Shown: positions 33,770-56,297 of the stretch, piece after piece
Position numbering within the stretch: the first letter of the stretch is position 1
How the letters are laid out: every line of letters starts with the position of its first letter
Source: Kaistella treverensis
GTDB lineage: Bacteria; Bacteroidota; Bacteroidia; Flavobacteriales; Weeksellaceae
DNA: 64,000 nt
Direction: 5' to 3'
NCBI RefSeq assembly: GCF_900114045.1
Contig: NZ_FORQ01000001.1
Coordinates: 558,001 to 622,000 of the forward strand
Notes under the pieces: generated by a model
What the model was told of the DNA's origin: nothing
Database searches by the model: none
Seen by the model: the letters and a program-made list of their open reading frames with translations, nothing else
Program-made: the position numbers and the translations under genes

Positions 33770-33860
33770 CAAGAGCCGGGAACCTACTTTCACTACTCGC
33801 TTCCCGCCCGCGCTTTCCCGGCGATTGGGAGAGCTCAAACATGCCGTTCAATCAGGGCTA
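33770..33860 (-). repeat. REP-like dispersed element, copy B
   Basis: On the minus strand it begins TAGCCCTGATTGAACGGCAT (33860-33841) and continues through GGGAAAGCGCGGGCGGG to GAAGCGAG. The opening matches copy A at 54028 (TAGCCCCGATTGCAGCGGCA), and AAAGCGCG recurs in all three copies. The inner hairpin arms differ from those of copies A and C. It sits downstream of the nrdJ terminator in the same orientation as nrdJ. Confidence 0.6.
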
Positions 33861-33915
33861 AAAATTTCCAGCTTACAAACCAAATAATCTGAAAAAGTCA
33901 AGTTAGACAAAAACA

Positions 33916-33949
33916 AAAAAAAGGCGTATTTAGCGCCTTTTTTTTTAAT
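33916..33949 (-). terminator. Terminator of nrdJ
   Basis: AAAGGCG (33921-33927) pairs with CGCCTTT (33935-33941). A long A-run on the plus strand gives a U-run on the transcript. Confidence 0.8.
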
Positions 33950-34001
33950 ATATTCAGGAGAGTTCTTCGTCGTTTCACTTTGTTCACTCGTTGCACCAAC
34001 A

Positions 34002-36554
34002 TTACCCACACTTACTATTCCCGCAATTTTTACACGTCAAACAGCCTTCCTGATAAACCACCTGATCAGAGCCACAGCTCGAGCATTTCCCTGTAGCTTC
34101 CGTTCCATCAGGAATGTAGCGCTTCAAAGCTCGCGCAACACCGGCTTTCCAGTTGTTAATAGACTCTGAATCGAGCTCCAAACGATTAATCAATTCCACT
34201 GCGTTTTCAATCGGCATTCCGTGTCTTAAAGTCCCGGAAATCAGTTTAGCGTAATTCCAGAATTCAGGTTTAAATTTATGCGAAAGACCTTCGATGGTAG
34301 TTTTATAACCACGCAGATTTTTAAACTGGAAATCATAGCGCGATTTTCCGTTCTCGTCCTGGTTTTTAATAATCACGCCTTCATTCACCCAGCGCGGAAC
34401 GGCAATTCCTTCTTCATCTTCAGCAAGACCTGTAAAAATTTCATAAGGTTTCCCTTCAATTAAACCGACAAAAGCAATCCATTTTTCTTTATTATTTTGA
34501 AAACGAACAACATCAGCTTCTAAAATATGCGGTCTTTTGGTAGGAAAAACTGGAGTGATCATTTCTGCTTTTTCCTCATTTTTATCCTCTGCGGAAATCA
34601 AAACGCCGGAGCGCGAACCGTCACGGTAAACTGTCACGCCTTTACAGCCCACTTCCCACGCTTTGATGTAAAGCTGATTTACCAATTCTTCCGTCGCATC
34701 ATTCGGTACATTGATCGTCACTGAAATCGAATGGTCCACCCATTTTTGAATCGCGCCCTGCATCTCCACTTTGCTTAACCAATCCACATCATTTGAAGTT
34801 GCTTTATAGTAAGGTGATTGCTCAATAATTTTATTCAATTCTTCCTGAGAATAATTTTTTTCGGTGTCTATTCCCTGAACTTCCATCCACTCTTTAAAAC
34901 GGTGGTGAAAAACCAAGTATTCTTCCCAAGAATCCCCAACTTCATCCACAAAATCCACGCGGATATCCTGATCGTTTGGATTTACTTTTCGGCGTCTTTT
35001 ATAAACCGGTAAAAATACAGGCTCAATACCGGAAGTCGTTTGCGACATCAACGACGTACTGCCGGTCGGCGCAATTGTCAGTAAAGCAATATTTCTTCTG
35101 CCGTATTTTTTTAAATCTTCATACAGTTTCGGATCTGCTTCTTTAATTCTTAATATAAAAGGATTTTTTTCCTCTCTTTTAGCATCATAAATTGCAAAAG
35201 CGCCGCGTTCTTTCGCCATTTCAACAGACGAACGGTACGCCGCCAACGCTAAAGTTTTGTGCACCAAAGTCGAAAATTCATTTCCTTCTTTGCTTCCGTA
35301 TTGAATATTTAACGCTGCCAACATATCTCCTTCTGCGGTAATTCCAACACCGGTTCTTCGGCCTTCAATTGTTTTCTGACGAATTTTTAACCAAAGATTC
35401 TTCTCAGTCGCTTTTATTTCTTCGCCTTCAGGATCTGCTGAAATTTTGGCCAAAATAGCGTCAATTTTTTCAATTTCAAGATCGATAATATCGTCCATCA
35501 TTCTTTGCGCATAACCGACATGTTCTTTGAAAAGCTCAAAATTAAATTTTGCCTGCTTCGTGAACGGATTTTCAACATAAGAAAATAAATTTACCGCCAA
35601 AAGTCGACAAGAATCGTACGGACACAAAGGAATTTCACCACACGGATTCGTAGAAACCGTTTCATAACCGAGGTCCGCGTAACAATCCGGCAAAGATTCA
35701 TTGATAATGGTGTCCCAGAAAAGAATTCCCGGTTCAGCAGATTTCCAGGCATTGTGGATGATTTTATTCCACAGATCAACAGCTTTAATTTCCTTTTGAA
35801 ATTTCGGATTTTTGCTGTGAATCGGATATTTTTGGATGTAATTTTCTTTATTGACAACGGCTTTCATAAAATCATCATCAATTCTTACGGAAATATTCGC
35901 GCCGGTAATTTTTCCTTGCTCCAGCTTTGCATTCACGAAATCTTCAGAATCGGGATGATTCACAGAAACCGAAAGCATGAGCGCGCCACGGCGGCCGTCC
36001 TGAGCCACTTCGCGTGTAGAGTTCGAATATCTTTCCATAAACGGAACCAAACCTGTGGAAGTCAGCGCAGAATTTTTCACCGCGGAACCTTTCGGTCGGA
36101 TGTTGGAAAGGTCGTGACCTACTCCACCGCGGCGTTTCATCAGCTGAACCTGCTCTTCATCAATTTTCATGATGCTTCCGTAAGAATCGCTTTGCGTGCC
36201 GCTACCGATTACAAAACAGTTCGAAAGCGACGCGATCTGGAAATTGTTGCCAATTCCCGTCATCGGACTTCCCTGCGGAATGATGTATTTGAAATTTTTG
36301 ATCAGGTCGAAAACTTTATCTTCAGAAAGCGCATTTGGATATTTTTCTTCAATTCGGGCGATTTCCGAAGCAATTCTGCGGTGCATATCGTCCGGATTTT
36401 GCTCATAAATATTGCCGTCCGAATCTTTCAGTGCATATTTGCTGACCCAAACTTTAGCTGCTAAATCGTCGTCGCCGAAATATTCTAAAGAAGCCTGAAA
36501 AGCTTCATCGTACGTAAAAGTCATAATTTTTTTTGAAGATAGAGTTGCTTCCAT
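34002..36554 (-). CDS. nrdJ: Adenosylcobalamin-dependent (class II) ribonucleotide reductase
   Basis: This enzyme makes deoxyribonucleotides using coenzyme B12 and works with or without oxygen. The 850-residue product has the reductase barrel motifs: LSNCFVIGSG near residue 130, GGVGHDLSNIRPKGS near 160, STNPCGEIPLCPYDSC near 300, and TIAPTGSTSLM near 495 with GIEPVF. A C-terminal zinc-ribbon-like tail (CSSCG...CLTCKNCG...C) ends the protein. No second subunit gene is adjacent, as expected for class II. The ATG at 36554 is used; an alternative at 36524 (MTFTYDEAF) is possible. Confidence 0.94.
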   Translation of the reverse strand: MEATLSSKKIMTFTYDEAFQASLEYFGDDDLAAKVWVSKYALKDSDGNIYEQNPDDMHRRIASEIARIEEKYPNALSEDKVFDLIKNFKYIIPQGSPMTGIGNNFQIASLSNCFVIGSGTQSDSYGSIMKIDEEQVQLMKRRGGVGHDLSNIRPKGSAVKNSALTSTGLVPFMERYSNSTREVAQDGRRGALMLSVSVNHPDSEDFVNAKLEQGKITGANISVRIDDDFMKAVVNKENYIQKYPIHSKNPKFQKEIKAVDLWNKIIHNAWKSAEPGILFWDTIINESLPDCYADLGYETVSTNPCGEIPLCPYDSCRLLAVNLFSYVENPFTKQAKFNFELFKEHVGYAQRMMDDIIDLEIEKIDAILAKISADPEGEEIKATEKNLWLKIRQKTIEGRRTGVGITAEGDMLAALNIQYGSKEGNEFSTLVHKTLALAAYRSSVEMAKERGAFAIYDAKREEKNPFILRIKEADPKLYEDLKKYGRRNIALLTIAPTGSTSLMSQTTSGIEPVFLPVYKRRRKVNPNDQDIRVDFVDEVGDSWEEYLVFHHRFKEWMEVQGIDTEKNYSQEELNKIIEQSPYYKATSNDVDWLSKVEMQGAIQKWVDHSISVTINVPNDATEELVNQLYIKAWEVGCKGVTVYRDGSRSGVLISAEDKNEEKAEMITPVFPTKRPHILEADVVRFQNNKEKWIAFVGLIEGKPYEIFTGLAEDEEGIAVPRWVNEGVIIKNQDENGKSRYDFQFKNLRGYKTTIEGLSHKFKPEFWNYAKLISGTLRHGMPIENAVELINRLELDSESINNWKAGVARALKRYIPDGTEATGKCSSCGSDQVVYQEGCLTCKNCGNSKCG

Positions 36555-36660
36555 ATATGTATTTGTTTGAAGAAATAAATATATAGAAGTTATATGACAT
36601 AGCGAAAAGTTTACAAAAAATTTAATCTAAGAAACTGATTATTAAATCAATAATTTTTTT

Positions 36661-36714
36661 ATTTGCCACGAAAGTGAGCAAATTTTTAAATTTTGCTTAT
36701 GACAGCGGTCATAA
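36661..36714. repeat. Cluster of three inverted repeats after the glycosyltransferase gene
   Basis: Three adjoining stem-loops are visible. ATTTGC/GCAAAT with inner CAC/GTG and loop GAAA occupies 36661-36683. AGCAAATTT against AAATTTTGCT occupies 36677-36697. TTATGAC/GTCATAA occupies 36697-36714 and spans the glycosyltransferase stop codon. No clean U-run follows on the minus strand, so termination may be weak. Confidence 0.5.
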
Positions 36715-37782
36715 ATTTTGGAAAACCTCTTCGTATTTTTTTAAAATCAAATCTTTTGAAAAACGTGAAGAAATTGAATTTTTAATTTCAGCAGAATTAT
36801 GCTTTTGATTTAGAATGGTAGAAATTTTAGCCGCAAAATCGGCATTTTTTTCAATACTAAATATTTCACCGTTAATGCCGGGTTGAATGATTTCGGAAAT
36901 TCCGCCCGGGCAACAGTTTGCGAGAGAATACGTTCCACAAGCGCCGGCTTCAAGTAAAACATTCGGAAAACCTTCGTAACGCGAAGAAAGAATAAAAAGA
37001 TCTGCAAATTTTAGGTATTGATACGGATTTTTTTGCTGTCCGTGAAAGATTACATTTTTTAAATTTAAATCTTTTTTCATCTGAAGAAGTAAATCTTTGT
37101 CGCGTCCATCGCCCAAAATATGCAGCAGAATTTTCTCCTCTTTTAAATGGCTAAAAACTTTCAGCAGATTATCAAAACCTTTTCTCGCGGATAGATTTCC
37201 TATGGCGACTACATTTTTAAAATTGTTTTTAAAACCTTCGGGTTTTTCTGCAAATTCCAGTTTTTCATTAATGAAATCAAAATCCACCGGATTATTGATT
37301 TTAATTAATTTTTCCGGTTTAAGGTTGAAATTTTCAATAAGATCATTTTTCATATCGTCACTCTGGCAAATGATTTTATCGTAATTATTGTAAAAACGGT
37401 AAAAAAACCGAATTTCTTTTCGGGTAACGTGTTTCGACACGACATTTGTCTCGCGCGCTACAAATTTTATTTTCGGAAAAATCTTAATAAATAATGCCAA
37501 ATAAGCGTTAATTTCCCCAAAGCCGCTGAAGACAATATCCGGTTTTCGGCTCTTTAAAACATTTAGAATAGAAAATAATGAATTCCGAATTCTGGGTGTT
37601 TTAATGTCAATAATTTCTACATCATCTTTCAAAATTTCCAGATAACCGCCTTCTTTGCGAAGTAGAAGGATTTTCGGATCGAAGGTTTCGCGTGACAGAT
37701 GGTTCGCAATTGTCGTGACAATACGCTCTGCGCCGCCCATTTCCAAATCCGGAAGTATAAATAAAATGACGGTCTTCTTCAT
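36709..37782 (-). CDS. GT4-family glycosyltransferase
   Basis: The 357-residue product has the GT-B fold of retaining GT4 transferases: an N-terminal glycine-rich loop with MGGAERIV, a Rossmann-like C-terminal domain (VVAIGNLSARKGFDNLLKVF near residue 190) and the nucleotide-sugar motif SRYEGFPNVLLEAGACG near residue 270. It probably adds a sugar to a cell-surface glycan. It stands alone rather than in a polysaccharide cluster. A terminator-like hairpin lies only 15 bases upstream of the start codon. Confidence 0.88.
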   Translation of the reverse strand: MKKTVILFILPDLEMGGAERIVTTIANHLSRETFDPKILLLRKEGGYLEILKDDVEIIDIKTPRIRNSLFSILNVLKSRKPDIVFSGFGEINAYLALFIKIFPKIKFVARETNVVSKHVTRKEIRFFYRFYNNYDKIICQSDDMKNDLIENFNLKPEKLIKINNPVDFDFINEKLEFAEKPEGFKNNFKNVVAIGNLSARKGFDNLLKVFSHLKEEKILLHILGDGRDKDLLLQMKKDLNLKNVIFHGQQKNPYQYLKFADLFILSSRYEGFPNVLLEAGACGTYSLANCCPGGISEIIQPGINGEIFSIEKNADFAAKISTILNQKHNSAEIKNSISSRFSKDLILKKYEEVFQNL

Positions 37783-37790
37783 GTTTTTTA

Positions 37791-37842
37791 GAAAAAACCT
37801 TGTCAGTTTTTTGGAACAGTGACAAGGCTAAATGCGAATTTA
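37791..37842 (-). promoter_or_regulatory. Terminator-like hairpin at the start of the glycosyltransferase leader
   Basis: CCTTGTCA (37798-37805) pairs perfectly with TGACAAGG (37820-37827). On the minus strand six T follow, 15 bases before the start codon. Upstream the minus strand reads TAAATTCG (37842-37835), one base off the -7 consensus. It is either the terminator of the upstream recQ unit or an attenuator. Confidence 0.55.
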
Positions 37843-37907
37843 CAATATTTCGCTAAAGGTTTATCAATAAAAATTGGCGGTTAAAACGGGCATTTTTTGC
37901 TAAACAG

Positions 37908-38162
37908 CTAAATGTTTTCTTCGGAATCAATCGACTCGATATGCGAAGCTATATTTTCTAAAAGTTCATCTGGTGTCATTCCTGCTGCAAATTGCTGGTC
38001 GAAATCCTGTTCTTCAACTTTTTCTGAATTGATGTTTGTGGCACATTTCTCTAAACTTGCCGAATTTTTAATGTCAATTAGTTTTTGCAAAACCTCAGCA
38101 TCATCCAAACTTTCAATCCAGCCGATGAGATTTTTTCGGGCTTCAAACAATGAATTTTTCAT
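37908..38162 (-). CDS. Small acidic hypothetical protein (84 aa)
   Basis: The 84-residue product is helical and acidic, with LIGWIESLDDAEVLQKLIDIKNS in the first half and MTPDELLENIASHIESIDSEENI in the second. The pattern resembles antitoxin-like proteins of type II toxin-antitoxin modules, but no toxin gene is next to it. It begins 4 bases after the recQ stop codon, so it is translated from the recQ transcript. Function unknown. Confidence 0.6.
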   Translation of the reverse strand: MKNSLFEARKNLIGWIESLDDAEVLQKLIDIKNSASLEKCATNINSEKVEEQDFDQQFAAGMTPDELLENIASHIESIDSEENI

Positions 38163-38166
38163 TTTT

Positions 38167-40371: not shown

Positions 40372-40468
40372 TTTCAATTTCATATTTATATAACGGCTCC
40401 TCTTTCCTCGTCTAAAACATCGCCGCTCAAAAATTTAGAATTAATCTAAGAAGATAGATATTGTTTCC

Positions 40469-40476
40469 TAAATTTG
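40469..40476 (+). promoter_or_regulatory. -7 element (TAAATTTG) upstream of kdsD
   Basis: TAAATTTG lies 157 bases before the kdsD start codon, predicting a leader of about 150 bases. That leader contains a small hairpin (TCGCG/CGCGA, 40559-40574) and one copy of the dispersed motif. Confidence 0.4.
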
Positions 40477-40633
40477 CATTGTAACCAAAGTTAAAAAATT
40501 AAAATTACAATTTAGTCCTACTTTGCGATTTTATCACGACCGAAGCATTTGTGCTGTTTCGCGAAAAAACGCGAGCTTAGAATTTATTACCAAAAAAAAT
40601 AGGACCTAAAATGGCAAATTTTTACCAAATTTA

Positions 40634-41593: not shown

Positions 41594-41763
41594 CACTTGC
41601 CGATTTCTAGCCATTTCAAAAAAAAACGGTCAAAAAGCACGGAATTTTTAGAAATAGAATATTTGGAACATATTAAATTTATTCAGCAATTAATTTATAA
41701 TTTCGCAACTGCAGAAAAAAACCGCTTTACCGGCGGACTCGTACATAATTAAAATAAATTTTC

Positions 41764-42591: not shown

Positions 42592-42596
42592 AAAAT

Positions 42597-42628
42597 AAAA
42601 AAACGGCCTATTTGACCGTTTTTTTTGT
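42597..42628. terminator. Bidirectional terminator between tatC and SRPBCC genes
   Basis: ACGG (42603-42606) pairs with CCGT (42616-42619), extended by A/T pairs, with T-run of eight. The loop contains TATTTGA. Confidence 0.75.
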
Positions 42629-42629
42629 T

Positions 42630-46279: not shown

Positions 46280-46294
46280 GCATTTAGAAAATGG

Positions 46295-47395: not shown

Positions 47396-48520
47396 ATGGC
47401 AGATTTTCCCAGAATTACAAGCGTTGAAGCGGACATTATTGAACTGCCGACCATTCGTCCGCACAAACTGTCGATGACCACCATGATGAGCCAAACAATG
47501 GTAATCATTAAAATTACCTCGGACGACGGAATTATCGGCTGGGGCGAAGCAACCACAATCGGTGGAATGACCTACGGTCCAGAATCTCCGGAGGCGATGA
47601 AACTCACCATCGAGCGATATATTTCGCCATTACTGAGCGGGAAAGATGCTTCAAATATCAATGCTTTAATGCTTGATATCAATAAAAATGTGAAAGGCAG
47701 CACATTTGCAAAAGCAGGAATAGAAACCGCCTTGCTTGATGCTTTGGGAAAAAGACTGAATGTTTCCGTTTCGCAGCTTTTGGGCGGTGCAGTTCGCATA
47801 GAACTTCCGGTTTTATGGACTTTAGCCAGCGGTAATACCGAAAAAGATATCGAGGAAGCTCAGTATTTAATTTCAATCAACCGGCATGACACTTTTAAAC
47901 TCAAAATCGGCAGTAACGAACCAAAAAAAGATGTTGCACACGTTGTCGCAATTAAAAAAGCGCTGGGCGAAAACATTAAAATTACGGTTGACATTAACCA
48001 AGCCTGGGACGAATTTACCGCAAAAACCTGGATTAAAGTTTTACAGGAAAACGGCGTGGATTTAATTGAACAGCCGATTATTAAAACCAATTTTGACGGT
48101 TTAGCACGCTTAACCGAATTTTTCCATGTTCCGATTATGGCGGATGAAGCTGTTGCAACCACTGAAGATGCGATGAAACTTGCAAAAATTCACGGTGGAA
48201 GCGTTTTCGCTGTTAAAATTATGAAAGCCGGAGGTTTGTACAATTCCGCGAAAATAGCGGCAATTGCAGATGCTGCAGATATTGCGCTTTACGGCGGCAC
48301 AATGCTCGAAGGCACCATCGGTTCGGTTGCTTCGGCGCACGTTTTCAGCACTTTTAATAAGTTGCAATGGGGCACCGAACTTTTCGGTCCGTTGCTCCTG
48401 ACGGACGATATTGTAACCAACCCGATGGTTTTCAAAGACCGCCAACTTTCCGTCCCGAATAGTCCGGGTCTCGGAATTGAAATTGACACCGATAAACTCA
48501 ATCACTTTAAAAGAAAATAA
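47396..48520 (+). CDS. catB: Muconate cycloisomerase
   Basis: CatB converts cis,cis-muconate to muconolactone. The 374-residue enolase-superfamily protein has the catalytic Lys pair in FKLKIGS near residue 169, metal ligands in VDINQAW near 198, EQP near 224 and ADEAV near 249, and KIMKAGG near 274. The N-terminal capping domain contains GIIGWGEATTIGG. Its place directly before catC and catA supports muconate rather than another substrate of the superfamily. It is the first gene of the operon; catC begins 3 bases after its stop. Confidence 0.93.
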   Translation: MADFPRITSVEADIIELPTIRPHKLSMTTMMSQTMVIIKITSDDGIIGWGEATTIGGMTYGPESPEAMKLTIERYISPLLSGKDASNINALMLDINKNVKGSTFAKAGIETALLDALGKRLNVSVSQLLGGAVRIELPVLWTLASGNTEKDIEEAQYLISINRHDTFKLKIGSNEPKKDVAHVVAIKKALGENIKITVDINQAWDEFTAKTWIKVLQENGVDLIEQPIIKTNFDGLARLTEFFHVPIMADEAVATTEDAMKLAKIHGGSVFAVKIMKAGGLYNSAKIAAIADAADIALYGGTMLEGTIGSVASAHVFSTFNKLQWGTELFGPLLLTDDIVTNPMVFKDRQLSVPNSPGLGIEIDTDKLNHFKRK

Positions 48521-48523
48521 ATC

Positions 48524-48814
48524 ATGGTATACGTAGTAGAAATGGATGTGAAAATCCCTGAAAGCTGGGATGAAGACAAGTTAAAAAGCTTCCTTGAAAG
48601 AGAAAAAGAGACGTCTCAAAAATGGCAAAATTCCGGGAAGTGGAAACATCTTTGGCGTGTGGCAGGAAAATATTCTAATATCAGCATACTGGATGTTGAA
48701 AGTCCGGAAGAACTGCATGAAATCATCAGCTCTCTCCCACTTTTCCCATACATGAATATAAAAGTGACAAGCATTTGCAAACACCCAAATGCCATCAAAG
48801 AAAATTTACTATAA
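48524..48814 (+). CDS. catC: Muconolactone delta-isomerase
   Basis: CatC shifts the double bond of muconolactone to give 3-oxoadipate enol-lactone. The 96-residue product matches the family over its whole length: MVYVVEMDVKIPESWDEDKL at the start, KWKHLWRVAGKYSNISI in the middle and HEIISSLPLFPYMNIKVTSICKHP at the end. It is translationally close to catB (3-base gap) and 32 bases before catA. Confidence 0.94.
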   Translation: MVYVVEMDVKIPESWDEDKLKSFLEREKETSQKWQNSGKWKHLWRVAGKYSNISILDVESPEELHEIISSLPLFPYMNIKVTSICKHPNAIKENLL

Positions 48815-48846
48815 TCAAAAGAATATTAATAAAAAAATTACGAATT

Positions 48847-49782
48847 ATGTTGACAAGAGAACAGATAGACGAAGTTTACGACAAAATAGTTTCTAAAGAA
48901 AGCGCTGAAGCCGGAAATCCGCGCGTGAAAGAAATCACTAACCGATTGCTGAAAGATCTATTTTATGCGATGGTTGATCTTAATATCACATCTGAAGAAA
49001 TGTGGCACGCCGCCGATTTTCTGCGCGAAGTTGGCGAAACCAACCAATGGGGACTGGTGTTCGCCGGAACCGGAATTGAACATTTTATCGACGTTATGGA
49101 AGATCAGGCAGACAAAGAAGCCGGTATTGAAGGCGTTACCGCAAGAACCATTGAAGGGCCGCTTTACGTTGCCGGCGCACCGGAAACCCAATCGTACGCT
49201 GAGCTTGAAAATGATCCGGAAGAAAACCGGGATTTGGAAAGATTTTATATGGAAGGTCAGATTAAAGATGTTCACGGAAATCCTGTCGAAGGTGCTTTAC
49301 TTGAGGTCTGGCATTGCAACGGAAACGGAATGTATTCCTATTTCGATACTTCGCAATCGGAATTCAATTTACGACGCGCGATCAAAGTTGGAGCGGATGG
49401 TAAATATAAATTCAAAACCATTGTTCCGCCAGGATACGCGTGTCCTCCGGGAAGCCCAACTGAACGACTAATGTCGATGCTTGGCAGACATGGCGCAAGA
49501 CCGGCGCATATTCACTTTTTTGTGACACATCCGGATTACCGCAAACTCACCACGCAAATCAATATTGAAGGCGATCCATTAATCTACGACGATTTTGCTT
49601 TTGCAACGCGCGAGGAACTCGTACCGCATATCAGCAGACACACGGCCGAAGAAGCGGAAGCAAACGGTTACGAAAAAGAACCTTATGCGCACGCAACTTT
49701 TAATTTCTCAATAATTAAAGAAGTTAAAGCGCCAGACGACGGTGAAAACCACCGTTCACGAGCTTCCTACGAAAACGCGTAG
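48847..49782 (+). CDS. catA: Catechol 1,2-dioxygenase
   Basis: CatA opens the catechol ring between the hydroxyls (intradiol) to give cis,cis-muconate, using non-heme Fe(III). The 311-residue product has the N-terminal helical dimerisation domain and GPLYVAGAP near residue 104. The iron ligands are Tyr near 163 (MYSYFD), Tyr near 197 (PPGYACPP) and His near 221 and 223 (RPAHIHFF). A frame open from 48775 overlaps catC, but the conserved start MLTREQIDEVYDKIV is at 48847. It follows catC by 32 bases and precedes pcaD. Confidence 0.95.
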   Translation: MLTREQIDEVYDKIVSKESAEAGNPRVKEITNRLLKDLFYAMVDLNITSEEMWHAADFLREVGETNQWGLVFAGTGIEHFIDVMEDQADKEAGIEGVTARTIEGPLYVAGAPETQSYAELENDPEENRDLERFYMEGQIKDVHGNPVEGALLEVWHCNGNGMYSYFDTSQSEFNLRRAIKVGADGKYKFKTIVPPGYACPPGSPTERLMSMLGRHGARPAHIHFFVTHPDYRKLTTQINIEGDPLIYDDFAFATREELVPHISRHTAEEAEANGYEKEPYAHATFNFSIIKEVKAPDDGENHRSRASYENA

Positions 49783-49801
49783 CTCACCAAAATAGCAAAT
49801 C

Positions 49802-49838
49802 TGCCAAACTCTTCATTTTCGGATGTGGAGTTTTGGCA
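49802..49838 (+). repeat. Stem-loop between catA and pcaD
   Basis: TGCCAAACTC (49802-49811) is nearly complementary to GAGTTTTGGCA (49828-49838), with one extra base. There is no U-run, so it may be an intercistronic processing or stability element rather than a terminator. Confidence 0.45.
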
Positions 49839-49856
49839 ATATAAATATCACAAAAA

Positions 49857-50633
49857 ATGCCCAAAATAACCGTCAATAAAGCCGTTTTAAATTACAAATT
49901 CCTGGACAACGGAAAAGCTGAAACCTTGGTTTTTTCAAATTCCCTCGGGACGAATTATTCCATGTGGGCGAAGCAGGAAAATGAACTTTCGAAACATTTC
50001 AACCTTTTATTTTCCGATACTCGCGGTCATGGAGAAAGCGAAACAACCGACGGCGATTACTCTGCTGAACTTTTAGGAAATGATATTTTGGAGCTGACAG
50101 AAATTTTAGGCTTTAAAAGCTTTATTTTTTGCGGTTTATCGATGGGCGGATTAGTCGGACAATGGCTGGCGCTAAATGGCGGATCGCGCGTTGAAAAGCT
50201 CATTTTATGCAATACTTCTCCTAAAATCGGAACGAAGGAAAGCTGGAATGAGAGAATTTCAATTGTTAAAACTAAAGGACTGAAACCTGTTGGCGAAAAC
50301 ACCGCCGAAAAATGGTTTACCGATGATTTCATTAAAAACGAACCTGAAGAAGTTCAGCAAATTTTAGAAAATTTCAAAAAAAATTCAGCCCAGGGTTATT
50401 CTTCATGTTGCGCTATGGTTCGCGATGCAGATTTTAGTGAAGAGATAAAAAACATCGAAAAACCGGTTTTAATTATTTCCGGAAGTGAAGATCCGGTAAC
50501 TACCGTCGATGACGGAAATAAGATGCAGAAACTCATTAAAAATTCACAGCATATAATTTTAAATGCAAGACATTTATCGGCTTTTGAATGTCCAAAAGAA
50601 TTTAATGACGCTCTGCTGAATTTTTTGAAATAA
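49857..50633 (+). CDS. pcaD: 3-oxoadipate enol-lactonase
   Basis: PcaD hydrolyses 3-oxoadipate enol-lactone to 3-oxoadipate. The 258-residue alpha/beta hydrolase has SNSLGTNYSMW with the oxyanion region near residue 28, DTRGHGESETTDGDY near 59, the nucleophile Ser in GLSMGGLVGQW near 96, acid Asp in ISGSEDPVTT near 212 and His in ARHLSAFE near 238. Motifs and operon position agree. A stem-loop lies in the 74-base gap after catA. Confidence 0.92.
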   Translation: MPKITVNKAVLNYKFLDNGKAETLVFSNSLGTNYSMWAKQENELSKHFNLLFSDTRGHGESETTDGDYSAELLGNDILELTEILGFKSFIFCGLSMGGLVGQWLALNGGSRVEKLILCNTSPKIGTKESWNERISIVKTKGLKPVGENTAEKWFTDDFIKNEPEEVQQILENFKKNSAQGYSSCCAMVRDADFSEEIKNIEKPVLIISGSEDPVTTVDDGNKMQKLIKNSQHIILNARHLSAFECPKEFNDALLNFLK

Positions 50634-50667
50634 AGAAAAATTTGCCGCTTTAAGGGCAAAAAAATAT
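50634..50667. repeat. Dispersed motif copy with reversed terminator polarity inside the cat operon
   Basis: TTTGCC (50641-50646) pairs with GGCAAA (50655-50660). The U-run would lie on the minus strand, so it cannot terminate the plus-strand operon in the usual way. Confidence 0.5.
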
Positions 50668-50732
50668 GAAGTGTCTTTTGCAATCATTTTAAATTATTGT
50701 AAACCATTTGATTAAAATTTAAAACTCAAGTA

Positions 50733-52079
50733 ATGAAAAATGTACCACAAATAAGTCCAAAAGAAGCTGCCAAACTCGTAAAAAGTGGTGATACACTTTT
50801 GCAAGGCGGCTTCGGCATGACAGGAAATCCGGTTCACCTAATGCACGCGCTTGCGGAAACGGAAACCAAAGATTTAACATTTATAGGAAATAATGTTGGC
50901 GAACCCGGTCTCGGTGGCGGGCGGCTTTTGCGAAACGGACAGTTAAAAAAAATGATCGGTTCGTTTTTCACATCAAATCCCGAAGCGGTGAAATCCGCAC
51001 AAAATGGTGATGTTAAATATGAGCTTATTCCGCAGGGAACTTTAGCTGAAGCGGTGCGCGCAGGCGGCGCAGGTATTGGTGGTTTTTATACCGTAACCGC
51101 AGCAGGAACCGAAATCGCAAAAGGCAAAGAAACGAAAGTAATCAACGGAAAAGAAATGGTTTTTGTTCCCGCAATTCGCGGAAATGTCGCCTTTGTCCGC
51201 GCCTGGAAAGCTGATGCCGCCGGTAATCTGCAGTATCGGATGACCGAGCAGAACTTTAATAAAGCTTTTGCGACCGCCGCAGATTTGGTCATAGCTGAAG
51301 TTGAGGAAATCGTAGAAGTTGGCGAAATTGCTCCGGAAAATATTCATACGCAAGGCTGCTACGTTGATTATTTGGTACAGGCGCACACCACTTTGGAAGA
51401 ATTGGGAAGTTCTGGCTCAGTAAATAAATCGAAAGTAGTTTCCGAAAAGCGGATGAATATGGCAAAACGCGCTTTAGCTGAACTGCGTAAAGGCGAAGTC
51501 GTGAATTTAGGAATTGGAATTCCAACCTTAGTAGCTGATTTAATTACACCCGAACACGGAATAATTTTACACACCGAAAACGGAATGCTCGGCGTAGGTC
51601 CCGTTCCACAAGACGGCGGCGGCGCAATGGATTATCCGGTAAATGCGGGCAAAATTCCAGTAACAGCGCTTCCGGGAACTAGCTATTTTGACAGCGCGGA
51701 ATCGTTCGCGATGATTCGCGGTGGTCACGTAGATACCGCCGTAATGGGCGGTTTGCAGGTAGATGAAGCCGGAAATTTAGCAAACTGGGCAGTCCCGGGA
51801 GAACCGCTTTTGGGTGTTGGCGGCGCAATGGATTTAGCATCCGGTGCGAAAAAACTCATCATTACCATGATGCACACGGAAAAAGACGGAACTTCGAAAA
51901 TAGTTCCCGTTTGCGACTTGCCATTAACCACGAAAGGTGCGGTAGACATGGTGATTACTGATTTGGCGGTTTTCCGCTATTTAAATGGTAAACTAACTTT
52001 AACCGAATTATTACCCGGTGCAACCATTGAAGAAATACGCGAAAAAACAGCTGCAAAATTCGAAGAAAAACTGCAGTAA
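50733..52079 (+). CDS. 3-oxoacid (3-oxoadipate) CoA-transferase, A and B subunits fused
   Basis: The 448-residue protein combines both subunits of a family I CoA-transferase in one chain. The A part (about residues 1-225) has [15 protein letters not shown] and [12 protein letters not shown]; the B part (about 235-448) has [14 protein letters not shown] and the catalytic Glu in TENGMLGVG near residue 282, then [14 protein letters not shown]. Between catABC/pcaD and the thiolase gene the substrate is most likely 3-oxoadipate with succinyl-CoA as donor (PcaI plus PcaJ). In most proteobacteria these are two genes, so the fusion is notable, though fused forms exist for related enzymes such as SCOT. 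Confidence 0.88.
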
Positions 52080-52122
52080 ACTTTTGCAAAAGCACGGCTG
52101 TTTTCGAAATTAAATTTTAATT

Positions 52123-52653
52123 ATGAGCCCAATTACCGGCTTTAGAAACTTTGTTTTTTCACCCATCATCATTTATATTTTCCGGTGTTGGGTGGGATTT
52201 ACAATTGGTTTTTGGCTCATGAAACAATTTCCAAATTTCGATCTTTTTTGGGCGTTGCTTTCAATTATGCTGGTCATCTCGCCGGAAGGCAAAGATTCTC
52301 CACGCCTGACGATGGAACGTGTAAAAGCCAACTTAATCGGTGCTTTATCTGCGTTCGTGGTGATTGCTGTGCCCGTAGATATTTTTTACAGAATTTTGGT
52401 TGGAATTCTGATTGCAGCCTTGCTGTGTAATTTATTTAATCTGCTGAACGTTTCGCGCACCGCTGTCGTTGCCATTATTATCATTCTGATTGAAAAACCA
52501 AACGACGGTTTTATGGCATCGATAGATCGCTTTCTTTCGGTTCTGGTTGGGTGTACAATCGGACTTTTGGTTGTGATTTTTACCGGCTCTATGGCCAAAT
52601 TTTTACATAAAAACATTTTGAAGATTGGGGACAGAGTCAATGACGAATCTTAA
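52123..52653 (+). CDS. FUSC-type membrane protein in the catechol operon
   Basis: The 176-residue product has about five hydrophobic helices and the FUSC/aromatic-acid-exporter pattern FPNFDLFWALLSIMLVISPEGKDSPRLTMERVKANLIGALSAF. It lacks the cytoplasmic domain of full-length exporters, so it is a half-size member. Its place between the CoA transferase and thiolase genes suggests transport or efflux of an aromatic or organic acid, but the family is also common outside aromatic operons. Confidence 0.7.
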   Translation: MSPITGFRNFVFSPIIIYIFRCWVGFTIGFWLMKQFPNFDLFWALLSIMLVISPEGKDSPRLTMERVKANLIGALSAFVVIAVPVDIFYRILVGILIAALLCNLFNLLNVSRTAVVAIIIILIEKPNDGFMASIDRFLSVLVGCTIGLLVVIFTGSMAKFLHKNILKIGDRVNDES

Positions 52654-52697
52654 AAAATTAAAAAAACGTATCTTTAAGACTTAAAAAAATAATTTAG

Positions 52698-53918
52698 ATG
52701 ACAGGCAAAAACGCATATATTATTGATGGAACCCGCTCTGCAATTGGGAATTTTAAAGGAAGTCTGGCGCCGGTAAGAACCGATGATTTAATGGCGTCCG
52801 TAATTAAAAGTTTAATTGAAAAAAATCCGAATGTTCCGGTTGATAAAATTGATGATGTAATTATCGGCTGCGCAAACCAAGCCGGTGAAGACAACCGAAA
52901 TATTGCCAGAATGTCGCTGCTTTTGGCAGGACTTCCGGTAACCGTTCCGGGTGAAACCGTAAACAGACTTTGTGCCTCGGGAATGAGCGCAATCGTTCAG
53001 GCGTCGCGCGCAATAAAATCAGGTGAAGGAGATCTTTTTATCGCCGGCGGCGTGGAAGGAATGTCACGTGGACCATACGCAATTTCAAAAACTGAAAATG
53101 CTTTTGGAACGGATCAGAAAATGTACGACACGAGTTTTGGCTGGCGTTTCATCAACCCGCAAATGGAAAAAATGTACGGCACCGATGCAATGGGGAAAAC
53201 CGCTGAAAATTTGGCTGAAATGTTCCATATTTCGCGTGAAGAGCAGGATGAATTTGCTTTAAACTCTCAGCAAAAAGCTAAAAAGGCGCAGGACAGTGGA
53301 CGATTAGCCGAAGAAATCTCGGATATCGTGATTCCACAAAGGAAAGGTGAACCAACCGTGGTAAATCAGGACGAATTTATCAAGCCCAACTCCACTATGG
53401 AGATTTTAGGTAAACTGCGCGCTGCATTTGTAAAGGAAAACGGAACCGTTACTGCCGGAAATGCCTCAGGACTTAATGACGGTGCAGCTGCGGTAATTGT
53501 AGCTTCAGATGAAGCTGTAGAAAAATATAATCTGAAGCCTTTGGCAAAAATCGTTACATCCGCTGTTACCGGAACTGAACCCAGAATTATGGGAATTGGT
53601 CCCGTAGATGCTACAAAACTGGCGTTGAAAAGAGCAAATTTAACGCTGGAACAAATGGACGTTATTGAACTTAATGAAGCGTTTTCTGCTCAAAGCATTG
53701 CGGTATTGAAAGGGCTAGAAATTGCACACGACGATCCACGCGTGAATATCAACGGTGGTGCAATTGCACTTGGTCACCCACTGGGAATGAGTGGAACGCG
53801 AATCACCTACTCCGCTGCTTTGGAATTGAATAAAACCGGAAAAAAATACGCCTTAGCTACAATGTGTATCGGTGTGGGACAGGGCTACGCGGTGATTTTG
53901 GAGAACACCAACGTTTAA
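52698..53918 (+). CDS. pcaF: 3-oxoadipyl-CoA/acetyl-CoA acyltransferase (thiolase)
   Basis: The thiolase splits 3-oxoadipyl-CoA with CoA into succinyl-CoA and acetyl-CoA. The 406-residue product has the active-site Cys in VNRLCASGMSA at residue 92, GGVEGMSRGPYA, the His in GGAIALGHPLGMSG near 358 and the second Cys in ATMCIGVGQG near 390. Sequence alone does not separate PcaF from other thiolases; being the last gene of the operon supports the assignment. A strong terminator follows. Confidence 0.88.
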   Translation: MTGKNAYIIDGTRSAIGNFKGSLAPVRTDDLMASVIKSLIEKNPNVPVDKIDDVIIGCANQAGEDNRNIARMSLLLAGLPVTVPGETVNRLCASGMSAIVQASRAIKSGEGDLFIAGGVEGMSRGPYAISKTENAFGTDQKMYDTSFGWRFINPQMEKMYGTDAMGKTAENLAEMFHISREEQDEFALNSQQKAKKAQDSGRLAEEISDIVIPQRKGEPTVVNQDEFIKPNSTMEILGKLRAAFVKENGTVTAGNASGLNDGAAAVIVASDEAVEKYNLKPLAKIVTSAVTGTEPRIMGIGPVDATKLALKRANLTLEQMDVIELNEAFSAQSIAVLKGLEIAHDDPRVNINGGAIALGHPLGMSGTRITYSAALELNKTGKKYALATMCIGVGQGYAVILENTNV

Positions 53919-53937
53919 AAATTTCACAAAAATTAGT

Positions 53938-53971
53938 AAAAAAGCCGGGAAAAATTTTTCCGGCTTTTTTT
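53938..53971 (+). terminator. Terminator of the catechol operon
   Basis: AAAGCCGG (53941-53948) pairs with CCGGCTTT near 53960-53967, extended inward by A/T pairs with one bulged G, followed by T-run. Confidence 0.82.
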
Positions 53972-54027
53972 GCCTGCTTTAGGAGCAGATTTTTTGGTTT
54001 CTTCGAAAGATAAAATAACCGGACTTC

Positions 54028-54130
54028 TAGCCCCGATTGCAGCGGCATCCTTTTGCGGAACGAAGTGCAGCAAAAGATACAGCGCAAAGCGCGTTGAAAT
54101 TTTGAAAGAAGCGAAAACCGTGTTGCTCCT
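54028..54130 (+). repeat. REP-like dispersed element, copy A
   Basis: It opens TAGCCCCGATTGCAGCGGCA and holds ATCCTTTTGC (54047-54056) pairing with GCAAAAGAT (54070-54078), with one bulged C. It then has GCGCAAAGCGCG and ends near GTTGCTCC. It lies downstream of the pcaF terminator in the same orientation. Copy C at 56212 shows the same bulged stem, copy B at 33860 the same opening. Confidence 0.65.
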
Positions 54131-54137
54131 AAAAATT

Positions 54138-54584
54138 TTAGTGTGCCTGAACTTTTGAAGGATCGTCGTAATTCACCATCCAGTTGATGCCGAATTTGTC
54201 CCTCCACATCCCAAAATAAGCGCCCCAAAACGTGTCGGAAAGCGGCATTGTAACATTTCCGCCGACAGAAAGCCCGTGGAAAACGCGGTCTGCTTCTTCG
54301 CGGGAATCAGTGTTTATAGAAAGCGAAATGTTGTTGCCAACCTGGTGCTCGTGCACGCCCGGCATTGTGTCGCTGCCCATCAAAATGGTTTCTTGGGAAA
54401 TCGGGAGCGTGATGTGCATGATTCTGCTTTTCACGTCATCCGAAAGTGGTGGCATTCCTTCTGCGGGCGGCATATCGCCGAATCTGCCGACCATCGGAAA
54501 TTCTCCGCCAAAAACGGATTTGTAGAAAATGAAAGCTTCTTCGCAGTTGCCGTCGAAGGTTAAATACGCGTTAATTGATGCCAT
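54138..54584 (-). CDS. VOC-family (PhnB-like) glyoxalase-fold protein
   Basis: The 148-residue product is a vicinal-oxygen-chelate fold protein of the PhnB group: INAYLTFDGNCEEAFIFYKSVFGGEF at the start, a MGSDTMPG block near residue 68 and a C-terminal FWGAYFGMWRDKFGINWMVNY. Members of this group often lack demonstrated activity; metal ligands are not certain from sequence. It belongs to a short run of minus-strand accessory genes. Confidence 0.85.
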   Translation of the reverse strand: MASINAYLTFDGNCEEAFIFYKSVFGGEFPMVGRFGDMPPAEGMPPLSDDVKSRIMHITLPISQETILMGSDTMPGVHEHQVGNNISLSINTDSREEADRVFHGLSVGGNVTMPLSDTFWGAYFGMWRDKFGINWMVNYDDPSKVQAH

Positions 54585-54595
54585 GCTTTTATTAG

Positions 54596-54652
54596 TGATT
54601 AATTTTTAATGATAAATGGATAGTTGAGAGTTGAGAGTTGACAATTAATAAT
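54596..54652. repeat. AT-rich short-repeat spacer
   Basis: The stretch has overlapping units of the type GAGAGTTGAGAGTTGACAA and ATTAATAATTAA. It ends inside the stop region of the acetyltransferase gene. Related units occur on the other side of that gene. Confidence 0.5.
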
Positions 54653-55109
54653 TAATTTTCAGTTCCATTTTGATGTTTGCGCGTTCGTAAGGAGTTTCTT
54701 TATCCAGCGGAACTTCTACAAAGCCAAACTTTTCATACATCGCAAGTGCGGGTTTTAAGCTGCGGTTGGAAAGTAAAATCAACTTTTCGAGCCCTAATTT
54801 TTTAGCTTCGCGAAGCGAATGCTCCATTAAAATTTTGCCGATGCCTTGACCTTGAAAATTTTCAGTTACCGCCATTTTTGCAAGTTCGTAACCGTCGTGT
54901 TCTTTTAACAGTGCGGCTGTTCCAACAATTTTATCGCCGGCTTTTGCCAGAAAAATTTTGCCGCCTTTAGCGATGATTTCTGTTTCGGGATTTGAAAGCT
55001 GATGTTCATCAAAATCCTCTACAACAAAATATTTCTGAAGCCATTCTACATTAAGGTTTTTAAAATCGTCGCGGTATTGCGGTTCAAAATCTATGATTTC
55101 TATGTCCAC
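54645..55109 (-). CDS. GNAT-family N-acetyltransferase
   Basis: The 154-residue product has the acetyl-CoA binding pattern of GNAT enzymes (GQGIGKILMEHSLREAKKLG near residue 97) with the preceding beta strands KIVGTAALLKEHDGYELAKMAV. The acceptor substrate is unknown. The gene is flanked on both sides by related AT-rich repeats, which hints that it may be a mobile or recently exchanged segment, though this is only a suggestion. Confidence 0.88.
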   Translation of the reverse strand: MDIEIIDFEPQYRDDFKNLNVEWLQKYFVVEDFDEHQLSNPETEIIAKGGKIFLAKAGDKIVGTAALLKEHDGYELAKMAVTENFQGQGIGKILMEHSLREAKKLGLEKLILLSNRSLKPALAMYEKFGFVEVPLDKETPYERANIKMELKINY

Positions 55110-55111
55110 TT

Positions 55112-55186
55112 TTTTAATTGTTAATTGTTGATAATTGGTAATTGATAGTTAACAATTAATATTTAACCATTAATAATTAACCATTA
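55112..55186. repeat. AT-rich tandem-like repeats upstream of the acetyltransferase gene
   Basis: TTAACCATTA occurs twice (55163-55172 and 55177-55186), and TTAATTG-type units occur several times before that. It fills the gap between two minus-strand genes. Confidence 0.6.
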
Positions 55187-55657
55187 TCACTGGTTTGTCC
55201 AGTTGGTTTTGTAGGTTAATTTTCCGTCGTAGCTTTTCCACTCGCCGACAAATTCGACGAACTGTCTTTCAATTTGCTGCGTTTTTTTGTTCCAGAAAAA
55301 GGTGTAAATCATTTTGCCGGTAAAAATCCCGGAATGCGGACCGCTCGGTTCTTCCGCAAGTTCGTATTCACCAAAAACCATATTTCTCTTTTTGCCGTCT
55401 TTGTATTTGGTGAGTGTGAGTTTTCCTTCGAATTTGCTTAAATTATTTTCAACCAAAGTGTTTCCGGACAGAAAATATTGCTGGTCATTTTTCCGGTTTT
55501 GCTGGGAGAGATTTATTTTGACCTTAATGGGCATTTTTTCCGGGCCGATTGTACCGGAATAAGGTTGCGATTTATTGAGCCAAACTTCGGAAATATTCGG
55601 CATTTGCGCAGTTACAAAACTGCTGATCAAAATTAAAAGAAAGAAGATTTTTTTCAT
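55187..55657 (-). CDS. Secreted hypothetical protein (156 aa)
   Basis: The 156-residue product has a signal peptide (MKKIFFLLILISSFVTAQ) and a beta-rich mature part with PYSGTIGPEKMPIKVKINL and HSGIFTGKMIYTFFWN. I do not recognise a family. It lies 19 bases downstream of the DUF1569 gene on the same strand and may share its transcript. Confidence 0.65.
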   Translation of the reverse strand: MKKIFFLLILISSFVTAQMPNISEVWLNKSQPYSGTIGPEKMPIKVKINLSQQNRKNDQQYFLSGNTLVENNLSKFEGKLTLTKYKDGKKRNMVFGEYELAEEPSGPHSGIFTGKMIYTFFWNKKTQQIERQFVEFVGEWKSYDGKLTYKTNWTNQ

Positions 55658-55676
55658 TTTTTTGTGTTTTTAAATT

Positions 55677-56132
55677 TTAAACGCCGAATTGCTCAAGATG
55701 ATGGTTTAAATGTTTGGCAAACATATTATTCCATTCCTGCGCGCTGAGTTTTCCGAAAGAGAAAGATTCTTTACCGTCAAAAGCTTCGCGGGCCAACTGC
55801 TGTGTTTTCTGGATAAAACCGATAAGGCGCTTTTTTTCCAGGATAAAATCCTGACGCTCTTTAATCAAAAATTGCGGAGCTGTTGGTGAGTTTTGAGTAT
55901 ATGCTTTTTCACCTACAACCTTGGGTTTTACAAAACTTTTTAAAATAAATTTGGCAATACCGCCGGGTTTTTTGTGTTTCTGCGGTTCGTACACCATTTC
56001 GTACGTTACATTGCAGTGCGCCAGCATTTGGTCCACCGACATTTTTCCCCAGTTTGGTACGGCGAACGGTGTAAGTTTGTTAATTCTGTCAATGTAATTC
56101 TGTGCCTGCTGCGCATTGAAAACGTCCTGCAT
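55677..56132 (-). CDS. DUF1569 (DinB-like fold) protein
   Basis: The 151-residue product matches DUF1569: the helical start AQNYIDRINKLTPFAVPNWGKMSVDQMLAHCNVTYEMV and a C-terminal WNNMFAKHLNHHLEQFGV. His residues (AHC near 41 and KHLNHH near 145) are placed as in the metal-binding DinB fold. The function of the family is unknown. It is the first gene of a short minus-strand run. Confidence 0.82.
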   Translation of the reverse strand: MQDVFNAQQAQNYIDRINKLTPFAVPNWGKMSVDQMLAHCNVTYEMVYEPQKHKKPGGIAKFILKSFVKPKVVGEKAYTQNSPTAPQFLIKERQDFILEKKRLIGFIQKTQQLAREAFDGKESFSFGKLSAQEWNNMFAKHLNHHLEQFGV

Positions 56133-56211
56133 ATTTTTCTGGTTTTTGTTTCTAACAAATATATTTAAAAAATATCAGGTTAAAACGATGTTTTTTCTGA
56201 AAACGGCAAGC

Positions 56212-56297
56212 CGGACAAGCGATTGAAATGGAAATCCTTTTTTATCGGAAAAGGCAAAAGCGGCGGGAAATAAAAAAGATTGCAATGGAAAGCGCGG
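56212..56297 (+). repeat. REP-like dispersed element, copy C
   Basis: GCGATTGAAATGGAAATCC (from 56219) is followed by TTTTTTATC and later ATAAAAAAGAT (56270-56280). The arms pair with the same single bulged C as in copy A. AAAGCGCG follows at 56289. It leads directly into a long hairpin at 56298. Confidence 0.6.

Follow-up and report, generated by a model that had tools for sequence, protein, structure and literature searches.

Three hairpins and their surroundings

The window considered here, a stretch of 64,000 nucleotides of the Kaistella treverensis genome, holds three related copies of an intergenic hairpin element, lying on the strands and close to the positions given in a first-pass annotation of this DNA. 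They are referred to below as copies A, B and C. The features around them are as follows, the identities of the genes being presumed from the sequences of their open reading frames.

32259..33662, minus strand: gene presumed to be dihydrolipoyl dehydrogenase-like, downstream of copy C; used as a search query
33766..33863 (core match 33776-33863), minus strand: copy C, called a diverged Flavo-1, with type IV core GATTGAACGGCATGTTTGAGCTC...GCGAGTAGTGAAAG and 3′ end GGTTCCCGGCTCTTGAAAAA
52698..53918, plus strand: gene presumed to be thiolase-like, upstream of copy A
53940..53975, plus strand: terminator-like hairpin of the thiolase-like gene, upstream of copy A; seen by eye and absent from the list of the terminator pattern scan
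54025..54100, plus strand: copy A, core, Flavo-1 type I
54033-54043 with 54081-54092, plus strand: copy A, lower stem
54044-54080, plus strand: copy A, variable tip, holding the bulged-C arm
54101..54135, plus strand: copy A, 3′ tail, read from the sequence, with end GTTGCTCCTAAAAA, 2 bases short of the stop codon of the VOC-like gene (minus strand)
54138..54584, minus strand: gene presumed to be VOC-like, its 3′ end abutting copy A
56205..56303, plus strand: copy B, core, Flavo-1 type II
56219-56229 with 56284-56295, plus strand: copy B, lower stem
56299..56349, plus strand: copy B, second hairpin (CCCGAAAATTGCCGG...CCGG..TTTTTCGGG) with 3′ end GGCCCAAAAAAA, from sequence and fold
56407..62304, minus strand: gene presumed to be alpha-2-macroglobulin-like, its 3′ end facing copy B; used as a search query

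Copy B is set on the plus strand and has a minus-strand gene on either side: it is downstream of 56407-62304 and upstream of 55677-56132. The A-run of its 3′ end reads, on the other strand, as the T-run that belongs to the terminator of the opposing gene. A pattern scan finds, within the 5′ end of copy A, a terminator-like site on the minus strand (54038-54017), so that this end may act as a terminator for the opposing gene; the scan returns 12 such sites in 3.1 kb vs 4.8 expected. The co-oriented terminator that had been described before both A and B was found by eye before A, and also before C, and is lacking before B.

Several sequence features had been proposed as common to the three copies. 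GATTG occurs in all of them, while the GG(C/A)AT box does not extend to B, which reads GGAAAT and not GGAAT. Sharing of AAAGCGCG is accidental: in C it is part of the variable tip, and its presence in A is apparently recent because the nearest relative genome reads AAAGCGGG there. The bulged-C arm, given as ATCCTTTT paired with AAAAGAT, exists in the form ATCC-T(n)/A(n)-GAT, but in A and B rather than in A and C; the inner arm of C is GCATGTTTGAGCTC...GCGAGTAGTG, unlike that of the other two.

A catalogued family with a diverged form

Copies A and B are members of Rfam family RF01705 (Flavo-1), with covariance model scores of 53.9 and 54.4 bits (curated cut-off 42 bits), and resemble it in stem, loops and taxon; the similar sequences in other flavobacteria mentioned in the first-pass annotation are this family. 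Copy C gives no RF01705 match even at E ≤ 10 and is below the curated cut-off. It is reached at 18.5 bits (E 0.0087-0.028) by R1, a covariance model trained on 30 Flavo-1 copies of the K. treverensis genome, copy C excluded; the training set includes A and B, which score 78.5 and 59.5 bits. Copy C is called a diverged Flavo-1 subtype rather than a curated member because canonical copies of relatives occupy the same site. The three repeats are one catalogued flavobacterial hairpin family, Flavo-1, with C as a strongly diverged form.

In the K. treverensis genome at least 42 RF01705 matches are found at E ≤ 0.001, the own-genome counts being lower bounds (150 of 683 candidates scored), and 61 of 100 genomes, this one among them, are RF01705-positive. 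One exact type I pattern occurs in 4 stretches of viral contigs. Other type IV copies also fall under the cut-off, at 28.9 bits (L071) and 29.4 bits (the A-site copy of genome G019). By eye, the 76-position RF01705 model does not reach the outer stem of a subtype (GCGTG/CACGC, GCAAT/ATTGC etc.) or the 3′ tail. The Rfam cut-off loses the type IV subtype, the form seen at 8 of the 22 occupied A-site loci when types are assigned by eye.

Covariation and the folding strand

The Flavo-1 stem is real by covariation, not by energy. Among 69 distinct arm pairs, taken from kept parses only of copies recruited with a covariance model, which favours paired and conserved arms, 98.6% of cells are paired vs 72.4% in shuffles, double-change cells number 136 vs 40.7 ± 6.2, and the covariation score is 0.735 vs 0.229 in shuffles and 0.06-0.19 with the partner slid. 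One stem column shows all four Watson-Crick pairs. Two further measures, pairs with any double change (5 vs 4.8) and further pair types (13 vs 13.3), do not exceed the shuffles because every variable column has many states. The refuting outcome named in the first-pass annotation, a lack of further copies or of compensatory changes, did not occur, in view of the 42 Rfam matches and the strong covariation, and its proposal of a repeated, structured, intergenic flavobacterial element is supported.

Folding energy was rejected as evidence for the element. The RNA folds of A and C are no better than shuffles (z 0.23 and 0.66), nor is the DNA nearest-neighbour fold of A (z 0.66), in which the stem is absent and would therefore need a partner or the sheared G.A loop energy terms missing from the model. 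Alone of the three, the RNA fold of copy B beats its shuffles (z −2.59), and the structure that it shows is the second hairpin, not the Flavo-1 stem.

Of 148 distinct elements, 131 were counted for wobble pairs, which are rare in the arms: 6 G.U and 1 A.C stand against 642 Watson-Crick cells. The other 17 were left out, 12 of them (several of type IV) because they did not fit the arm pattern and 5 as misparsed (at most 2 Watson-Crick of five pairs). Variable columns of 36 distinct tRNAs (stretches L072-L211) hold 72 G.U vs 652 Watson-Crick cells, so that G.U is about tenfold rarer in Flavo-1; intolerance of G.U by 2-bp helices, or descent from few founders, can also cause a low wobble content. 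In the tips of 82 elements, 881 Watson-Crick, 13 G.T, 2 A.C and 16 other pairs are counted. Summed over arms and tips, G.T exceeds A.C by 19 to 3 (p 0.0009), which points to one folding strand. A wider arm count that includes misparsed rows gives 443 Watson-Crick, 5 G.U, 6 A.C and 11 other of 465 cells in 93 of 102 elements; its six A.C sit in four rows judged misparsed, and with those kept the comparison of G.T with A.C becomes 18 vs 8. The folding strand is also lower in corrected energy in 64% of 102 elements, by −1.2 kcal/mol in the mean difference.

Retention of sites and exchange in place

Flavo-1 copies are retained at orthologous sites. The nearest relative genome has 28 of its 30 best copies at a K. 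treverensis Flavo-1 site, the copy A site is occupied in 22 of 30 genus loci, and the copy C site holds canonical Flavo-1 in relatives. Tips or cores are sometimes exchanged in place, as seen in 4 of 28 pairs. The arms change about three times more slowly than the flanks beyond the tail (16 changes in 729 aligned bases vs 350 in 5261, p 2e-7). No such slowing is seen in the 3′ tail, with 5.5% of bases changed, or in the near 5′ flank, with 7.3%, when these are set against the distant flanks (5.9 and 7.4%). In 21 of 43 own-genome copies the tail resembles a consensus, itself typed from these copies, with a score no lower than the 99% level of the null. The idea, formed by eye, that tips derive from a set of palindromes common in the genome was unsupported by counts in about 3.2 Mb.

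Relation to transcription

The orientation of Flavo-1 does not follow neighbouring genes. Of 72 copies, 67 are flanked on each side by a called gene; their contexts are mixed (-E- 26, +E- 16, +E+ 13, -E+ 12), and the placing of the element after a terminator, read earlier from A and B, does not hold as a rule. The folding strand is antisense to the 3′ neighbour gene in 42 of 67 copies (p 0.05) and, in 86 of 138, coincides with the strand of negative GC skew (p 0.005); both biases are modest, with copies counted that are partly orthologous. The promoter pattern TTG-17..22-TAnnTTTG, which covers sigma-A-like promoters only, is present in 1 of 43 upstream stretches compared with a shuffled mean of 0.43; the copies thus generally lack a sigma-A-like promoter pattern of their own.

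These observations bear on the reading of Flavo-1 as a structured RNA, either an sRNA or a protein-binding RNA element in untranslated regions, which is possible but on balance improbable. It has the catalogues on its side: Rfam files RF01705 as 'Gene; sRNA', and the listing in Weinberg 2010 marks Flavo-1 as RNA 'y' and cis-regulatory 'n' (PMC2864571). Covariation of the kind found in RNAs and the preference for one folding strand also agree with an RNA, as do the several 5′ transcribed regions of F. psychrophilum that coincide with Flavo-1 matches in a published transcriptome (PMC9723704). The same data set describes the matches as sense or antisense to transcribed regions, with many in none (PMC9723704), which speaks against a general RNA role, as do the near absence of sigma-A-like patterns, the lack of a common sense of transcription among neighbours and the scarcity of G.U relative to tRNAs.

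Mobility and neutral decay

If Flavo-1 were a mobile element of the MITE or REP kind, or what is left of one, with a transposase acting in trans, its multicopy, intergenic hairpins would be accounted for; this origin is nevertheless unlikely. Flavo-1 copy and Y1 gene numbers correlate (rho 0.69 in 100 genomes, 0.42 within the genus), both numbers tracking kinship and genome size. In three relatives, 4 of 11 Y1 genes have a Flavo-1 copy no farther than 4 kb away vs 1.4 expected, a weak excess (p 0.04, the distance having been picked post hoc), and an R1 copy lies 1.9-4 kb from a Y1 gene in 10 of 19 stretches, of which 5 were preselected for a nearby copy and 4 others seem to repeat the same two loci in further species. 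Against this, the Y1 transposase (PF01797) has 0 matches in the K. treverensis genome and in its nearest relative (G018), yet these carry 42 and 46 copies. Of 19 Y1 genes of relatives inspected by eye, none is bordered by Flavo-1 in the 170 bases to either side, where other short palindromes mostly stand. The label 'REP-like' in the strict sense is therefore not upheld, the full copy set being present here with no Y1 match.

The copies also lack a consistent terminal inverted repeat. An inverted tail in the 5′ flank reaches at least the 99% null score in 4 of 43 own copies, and pairing of 5′ flank and tail is no better within a copy than between copies (p 0.44). The 5′ flank of copy A resembles an inverted tail, but a whole-element inverted repeat is not general among copies and was rejected. 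Mobility is further opposed by the persistence of copies at the same sites and by the lack of a match to copy A on plasmids or phages.

The weakest account, neutral remains whose arm complementarity is kept only by replication slippage between arms (quasi-palindrome correction), fits the near-perfect complementarity, the few wobble pairs and the replacement of tips but is very improbable, as such correction would erase the mismatches conserved in the GNA/GNA loops, and as change in the arms is slower than in the flanks.

A proposed site-bound hairpin mark

The explanation favoured here, with somewhat less than even confidence, is that Flavo-1 is a cis-acting hairpin mark at fixed intergenic sites, folding from one strand, probably of DNA. 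A mark of folded single-strand DNA seems to suit the element better than does a small RNA that stands alone. In the single-stranded state, one defined strand would form short Watson-Crick helices that, split by GNA/GNA purine internal loops, make up the lower stem, above which would come the bulged-C arm (in types I and II) and then a freely variable palindromic tip. The fold would be made mainly by single-stranded DNA and not by stand-alone RNA, as has been discussed as a possible mode of action for the STAXI motif (PMC2864571). A putative host protein that binds or cuts hairpins may recognise the GNA-loop stem, and the exchange of tips and cores may be a by-product of hairpin cutting with templated repair or of conversion between copies. 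The putative service to the cell would concern chromosome structure, replication or transcription insulation, insulation between neighbouring units being a guess.

It is conceivable, although decidedly unlikely, that Flavo-1 loci are fixed DNA sites that exchange the folded hairpin as a cassette, the tip or whole core coming from elsewhere while site, orientation and outer stem persist over the age of the genus. If so, Flavobacteriia would possess a hairpin-exchange system that Rfam files as a small RNA.

Flavo-1 was described in 2010 and figures in Rfam as an sRNA without known function; a review of 2022 mentions it in the section that treats the most abundant sRNAs (PMC9029176). Many of the sRNAs annotated automatically in Flavobacteriia would be misleading entries should it act as folded DNA or lack general transcription. 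The family also offers a natural experiment: each genome has about 40 sites, many of them retained since the genus arose, where the sequence of the hairpin is replaced while its structure stays.

Comparison with known systems

REP elements associated with RAYT (Y1 HUH) transposases are likewise short, multicopy, intergenic hairpins with a conserved bulge, and carry the foot tag GTAG (or CGTC) according to a published description (PMC3733652). GTAG, the only form scored, is found in 2 of 43 own copies, with CTAG in 22, TTAG in 4, ATAG in 3 and no TAG in 12. Membership of Flavo-1 in the REP/RAYT group fails: the genome has no Y1 match, the GTAG foot is rare, RAYT genes of relatives mostly bear other palindromes and the copies are site-bound.

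The ERIC/IRU sequences of enterobacteria are imperfect palindromes of about 100-150 bp, many at conserved intergenic places, and resemble Flavo-1 as site-retained imperfect palindromes; they are not known for the all-four-pair covariation or in-place core exchange seen in Flavo-1. The attC sites of integrons are proposed to act as single-stranded DNA structures and conserve structure rather than sequence, as does Flavo-1.

Family assignment and copy number

Flavo-1 (RF01705) is a known family, and the window (G000:C10:558001-622000, in a genome of 2.38 Mb) holds one diverged subtype of it. At the Rfam gathering threshold the window gives two matches, both Flavo-1, and these are copies A and B of the three repeats described in the first-pass annotation. 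Copy C is absent from the Rfam search of the window even at E ≤ 10, and is reached weakly by R1, a covariance model whose 30 building copies, all from the same genome, do not include it.

54025-54100, + strand: copy A, Flavo-1 (RF01705) at the Rfam gathering threshold
56205-56303, + strand: copy B, Flavo-1 (RF01705) at the Rfam gathering threshold
33776-33863, - strand: copy C, weak match to R1 (18.5 bits)

The covariance-model search of the whole genome and its relatives that had been proposed as a check did find further copies: among the 150 of 683 candidates scored in K. treverensis, at least 42 are Rfam matches at E ≤ 0.001 and at least 30 exceed the curated cut-off. Under stricter filters, Flavo-1 is found in 61 of 100 related genomes (K. 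treverensis counted in) and in 44 of 296 genomes drawn evenly from the phylum.

Several features adjoin the copies. Copy A follows a gene run at 47396-53918, presumably a beta-ketoadipate (catechol/protocatechuate) degradation cluster, whose last gene is thiolase-like. Inside the 5′ end of copy A lies a terminator-like pattern (54038-54017, - strand) that could serve the neighbouring VOC-like gene (54138-54584, - strand). Copy B is adjoined by a GATTGCTTCGTTCCTCGCAATGAC-type repeat (56375-56405), of which the exact form CATTGCGAGGAACGAAGCAATC occurs once in the window; related pieces (TCGCAATGAC) lie within Flavo-1 tips at Epilithonimonas loci. At one site occupied in three species (L003, L051, L054), the 3′ end of the element in each of them passes directly into a TAAATTTG promoter-like stretch that belongs to the next gene.

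Anatomy and covariation

Oriented copies and pair counts give a lower stem with the 5′ side NN-G-A-T-N-GNA-XY and the 3′ side X′Y′-GNA-N′-AG-C-NN, in which Watson-Crick steps are interrupted by an A.G mismatch and GNA/GNA 3×3 loops. Sheared G.A pairs would fit such interruptions. An inner arm follows, then a variable palindromic tip. The bulged C noted earlier is kept in inner types I and II.

Inner types of the element, sorted by eye
Type I: GCGGCATCC...GATAYAGCGG
Type II: GTGGAAATCC...GATTGYAACGG
Type III: GCGGCTACCCCGCA...GAGGAGTAATAGCGG
Type IV: GAACGGCATGTTTGAGCTC...GCGAGTAGTG and related forms

An outer-stem subtype was recognized by eye in seven K. treverensis copies (L012, L013, L025, L030, L064, L068, L069), where a 5-base strand (GCGTG, GCAAT, GCAAG or GCGTA) adjoins the lower stem and its complement sits past the variable insert, mostly directly 5′ of CC(C) and an A-run. 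Copies with TAGCCC have a discernible 3′ tail ending in TTGCTCCTAAAA; of the 43 own copies, 21 score at or above the 99% null level against a tail consensus typed from these copies themselves.

Over 69 distinct arm pairs, standard pairs fill 98.6% of 483 cells (72.4% when shuffled) and the covariation score is 0.735, against 0.229 for shuffled and 0.06-0.19 for slid partners. The compensatory stem changes on which the first-pass annotation had staked its structural claim are present, with 136 double-change cells against 40.7 ± 6.2 shuffled. Two counts stay at the shuffled level, those of pairs in which a double change occurs (5, shuffled 4.8) and of pair types (13, shuffled 13.3). The shuffle control is optimistic because the rows are related and comprise kept parses only. 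Folding energy relative to shuffles gives the stem no support in copies A (z 0.23) and C (z 0.66), and the value for copy B (z -2.59) is owed to its second hairpin.

Retention of sites and exchange in place

Flavo-1 sites are old and kept. The VOC-like protein is matched in 34 of 36 genus genomes, and site A, the orthologous place of copy A, is filled in 22 of the 30 best VOC-like loci, in the same orientation and just beyond the stop of the gene, while the far-side gene differs among loci. By eye, these 22 copies comprise ten of type I, three of type II, eight of type IV and one truncated. The A-site sequence is identical between G023 (L222) and a K. jeonii locus (L072), which suggests that Kaistella species are among the genus-mates compared, and one genome outside the genus also has a site-A copy (L045). 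A VOC match is present in 53 of the 80 named loci, and in eight of these (L072, L074, L075, L077, L079, L120, L129, L138), several being genomes already in the genus set, a copy lies within 45 bases of the VOC end; the other VOC loci, including mainstream Chryseobacterium species, have none within that distance. At site C, the 1.5-kb stretch upstream of the lpd-like (dihydrolipoyl dehydrogenase-like) gene contains a match in 15 of 30 loci, mostly of type I, and two further copies look degenerate by eye. Site B is filled in 6 of 30 loci.

The tree of the 20 genomes having all three marker proteins has good support on 5 of its 17 inner branches. On this tree, site A requires five presence changes and four type changes among occupied genomes, and site C four changes in total when the two degenerate copies are scored as type I. 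Type IV at site C is confined to K. treverensis and its nearest compared genome, G018, and type I there spans the two halves of the tree, so that one type switch at this site is the simplest reading.

G018 has 46 copies, and 28 of its best 30 share their site with the K. treverensis genome. Across 27 pairs, the arms are changed at 16 of 729 aligned bases against 350 of 5261 beyond the near flanks (Fisher p 2e-7), although model-based copy finding favours conserved arms; L312 was excluded because its whole core differs. Tail (66/1196) and near 5′ flank (58/793) evolve no more slowly than distant flanks. Tip identity falls below 60% in 3 of the 28 pairs (L306/L070, L323/L030, L331/L003), and the core type differs in a fourth, L312/L004. 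There, L312 best matches the copy at another site (0.87 with L308 or L005, against 0.70 for its orthologous partner), the pattern that conversion from copy to copy would leave. In single species, other small palindromes (CCCGATAGCTATCGGG; CCTTCGACAAGCTCAGG or a close variant of it) have been inserted into the Flavo-1 elements of sites A and C (L217 tail; L251, L252, L255).

RNA or DNA

In five variable stem columns of 131 parsed elements there are 642 Watson-Crick, 6 G.U, 1 A.C and 6 other cells; the variable columns of 36 distinct tRNAs (L072-L211) give 652 Watson-Crick and 72 G.U, ARAGORN reporting only stems that it accepts. The tips of 82 elements hold 881 Watson-Crick, 13 G.T, 2 A.C and 16 other cells. 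G.T exceeds A.C by 19 to 3 (18 to 8 if misparsed rows are retained), and therefore one strand folds; a single folding strand argues against a symmetric cruciform. In three single-contig relatives, the replichores of each being fitted to 20 sampled stretches, the folding strand coincides with the strand of negative GC skew for 86 of 138 copies (32/47, 28/51 and 26/40; p 0.005).

Transcription finds no support in promoter patterns, present in 1 of 43 own copies against 0.43 when shuffled, or in gene contexts. For 67 of 72 copies, some orthologous to each other, the contexts (element E between neighbour strands) are -E- 26, +E- 16, +E+ 13 and -E+ 12; relative to the 3′ neighbour, the folding strand runs antisense in 42 of the 67 (p 0.05), and 16 of the 67 gaps are convergent, compared with 29 of 197 in the background (p 0.09). 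In the published transcriptome of F. psychrophilum (PMC9723704), Flavo-1 hits lie sense or antisense within transcribed regions, and many fall outside any such region.

In the available parts of the original paper, Flavo-1 is mentioned once, as a table entry (PMC2864571). No proposal of a DNA role for Flavo-1/RF01705 was found in the literature searched, in which subscription journals are thinly covered, and site retention, exchange in place and the wobble facts were not found in print there.

Relation to REP systems

The label 'REP-like' was not retained. The K. treverensis and G018 genomes, with at least 42 and 46 Flavo-1 copies, have no match to the Y1 (RAYT) transposase (PF01797). In the genus as a whole, the six genomes lacking one carry at least 36, 25, 6, 38, 8 and 13 copies, with at most 42 scored. 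Counts of Flavo-1 and Y1 do correlate (rho 0.69 over 100 genomes, 0.42 within the genus), of which kinship and genome size may be the source. By R1, a copy lies 1.9-4 kb from the Y1 gene in 10 of 19 stretches from relatives, five of these ten having been chosen beforehand for proximity. For three genomes the lists are full, and 4 of the 11 Y1 genes listed there have a copy no more than 4 kb away, against 1.4 expected (p 0.04), a distance picked afterwards. Inspected by eye, the 19 stretches show no Flavo-1 within 170 bases of the Y1 genes, whose edges mostly bear other palindromes. Despite the proximity, Flavo-1 is not classed as REP, as Y1-less genomes carry copies and Y1 genes are mostly edged by other palindromes. 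In genus-mates (L336-L354), these Y1 genes are mostly edged by short palindromes of their own, for example around GCTCCGTAGGAGC and GTCGCGGAGCGAC, and together they are likely to be REP systems of a kind absent from the K. treverensis genome.
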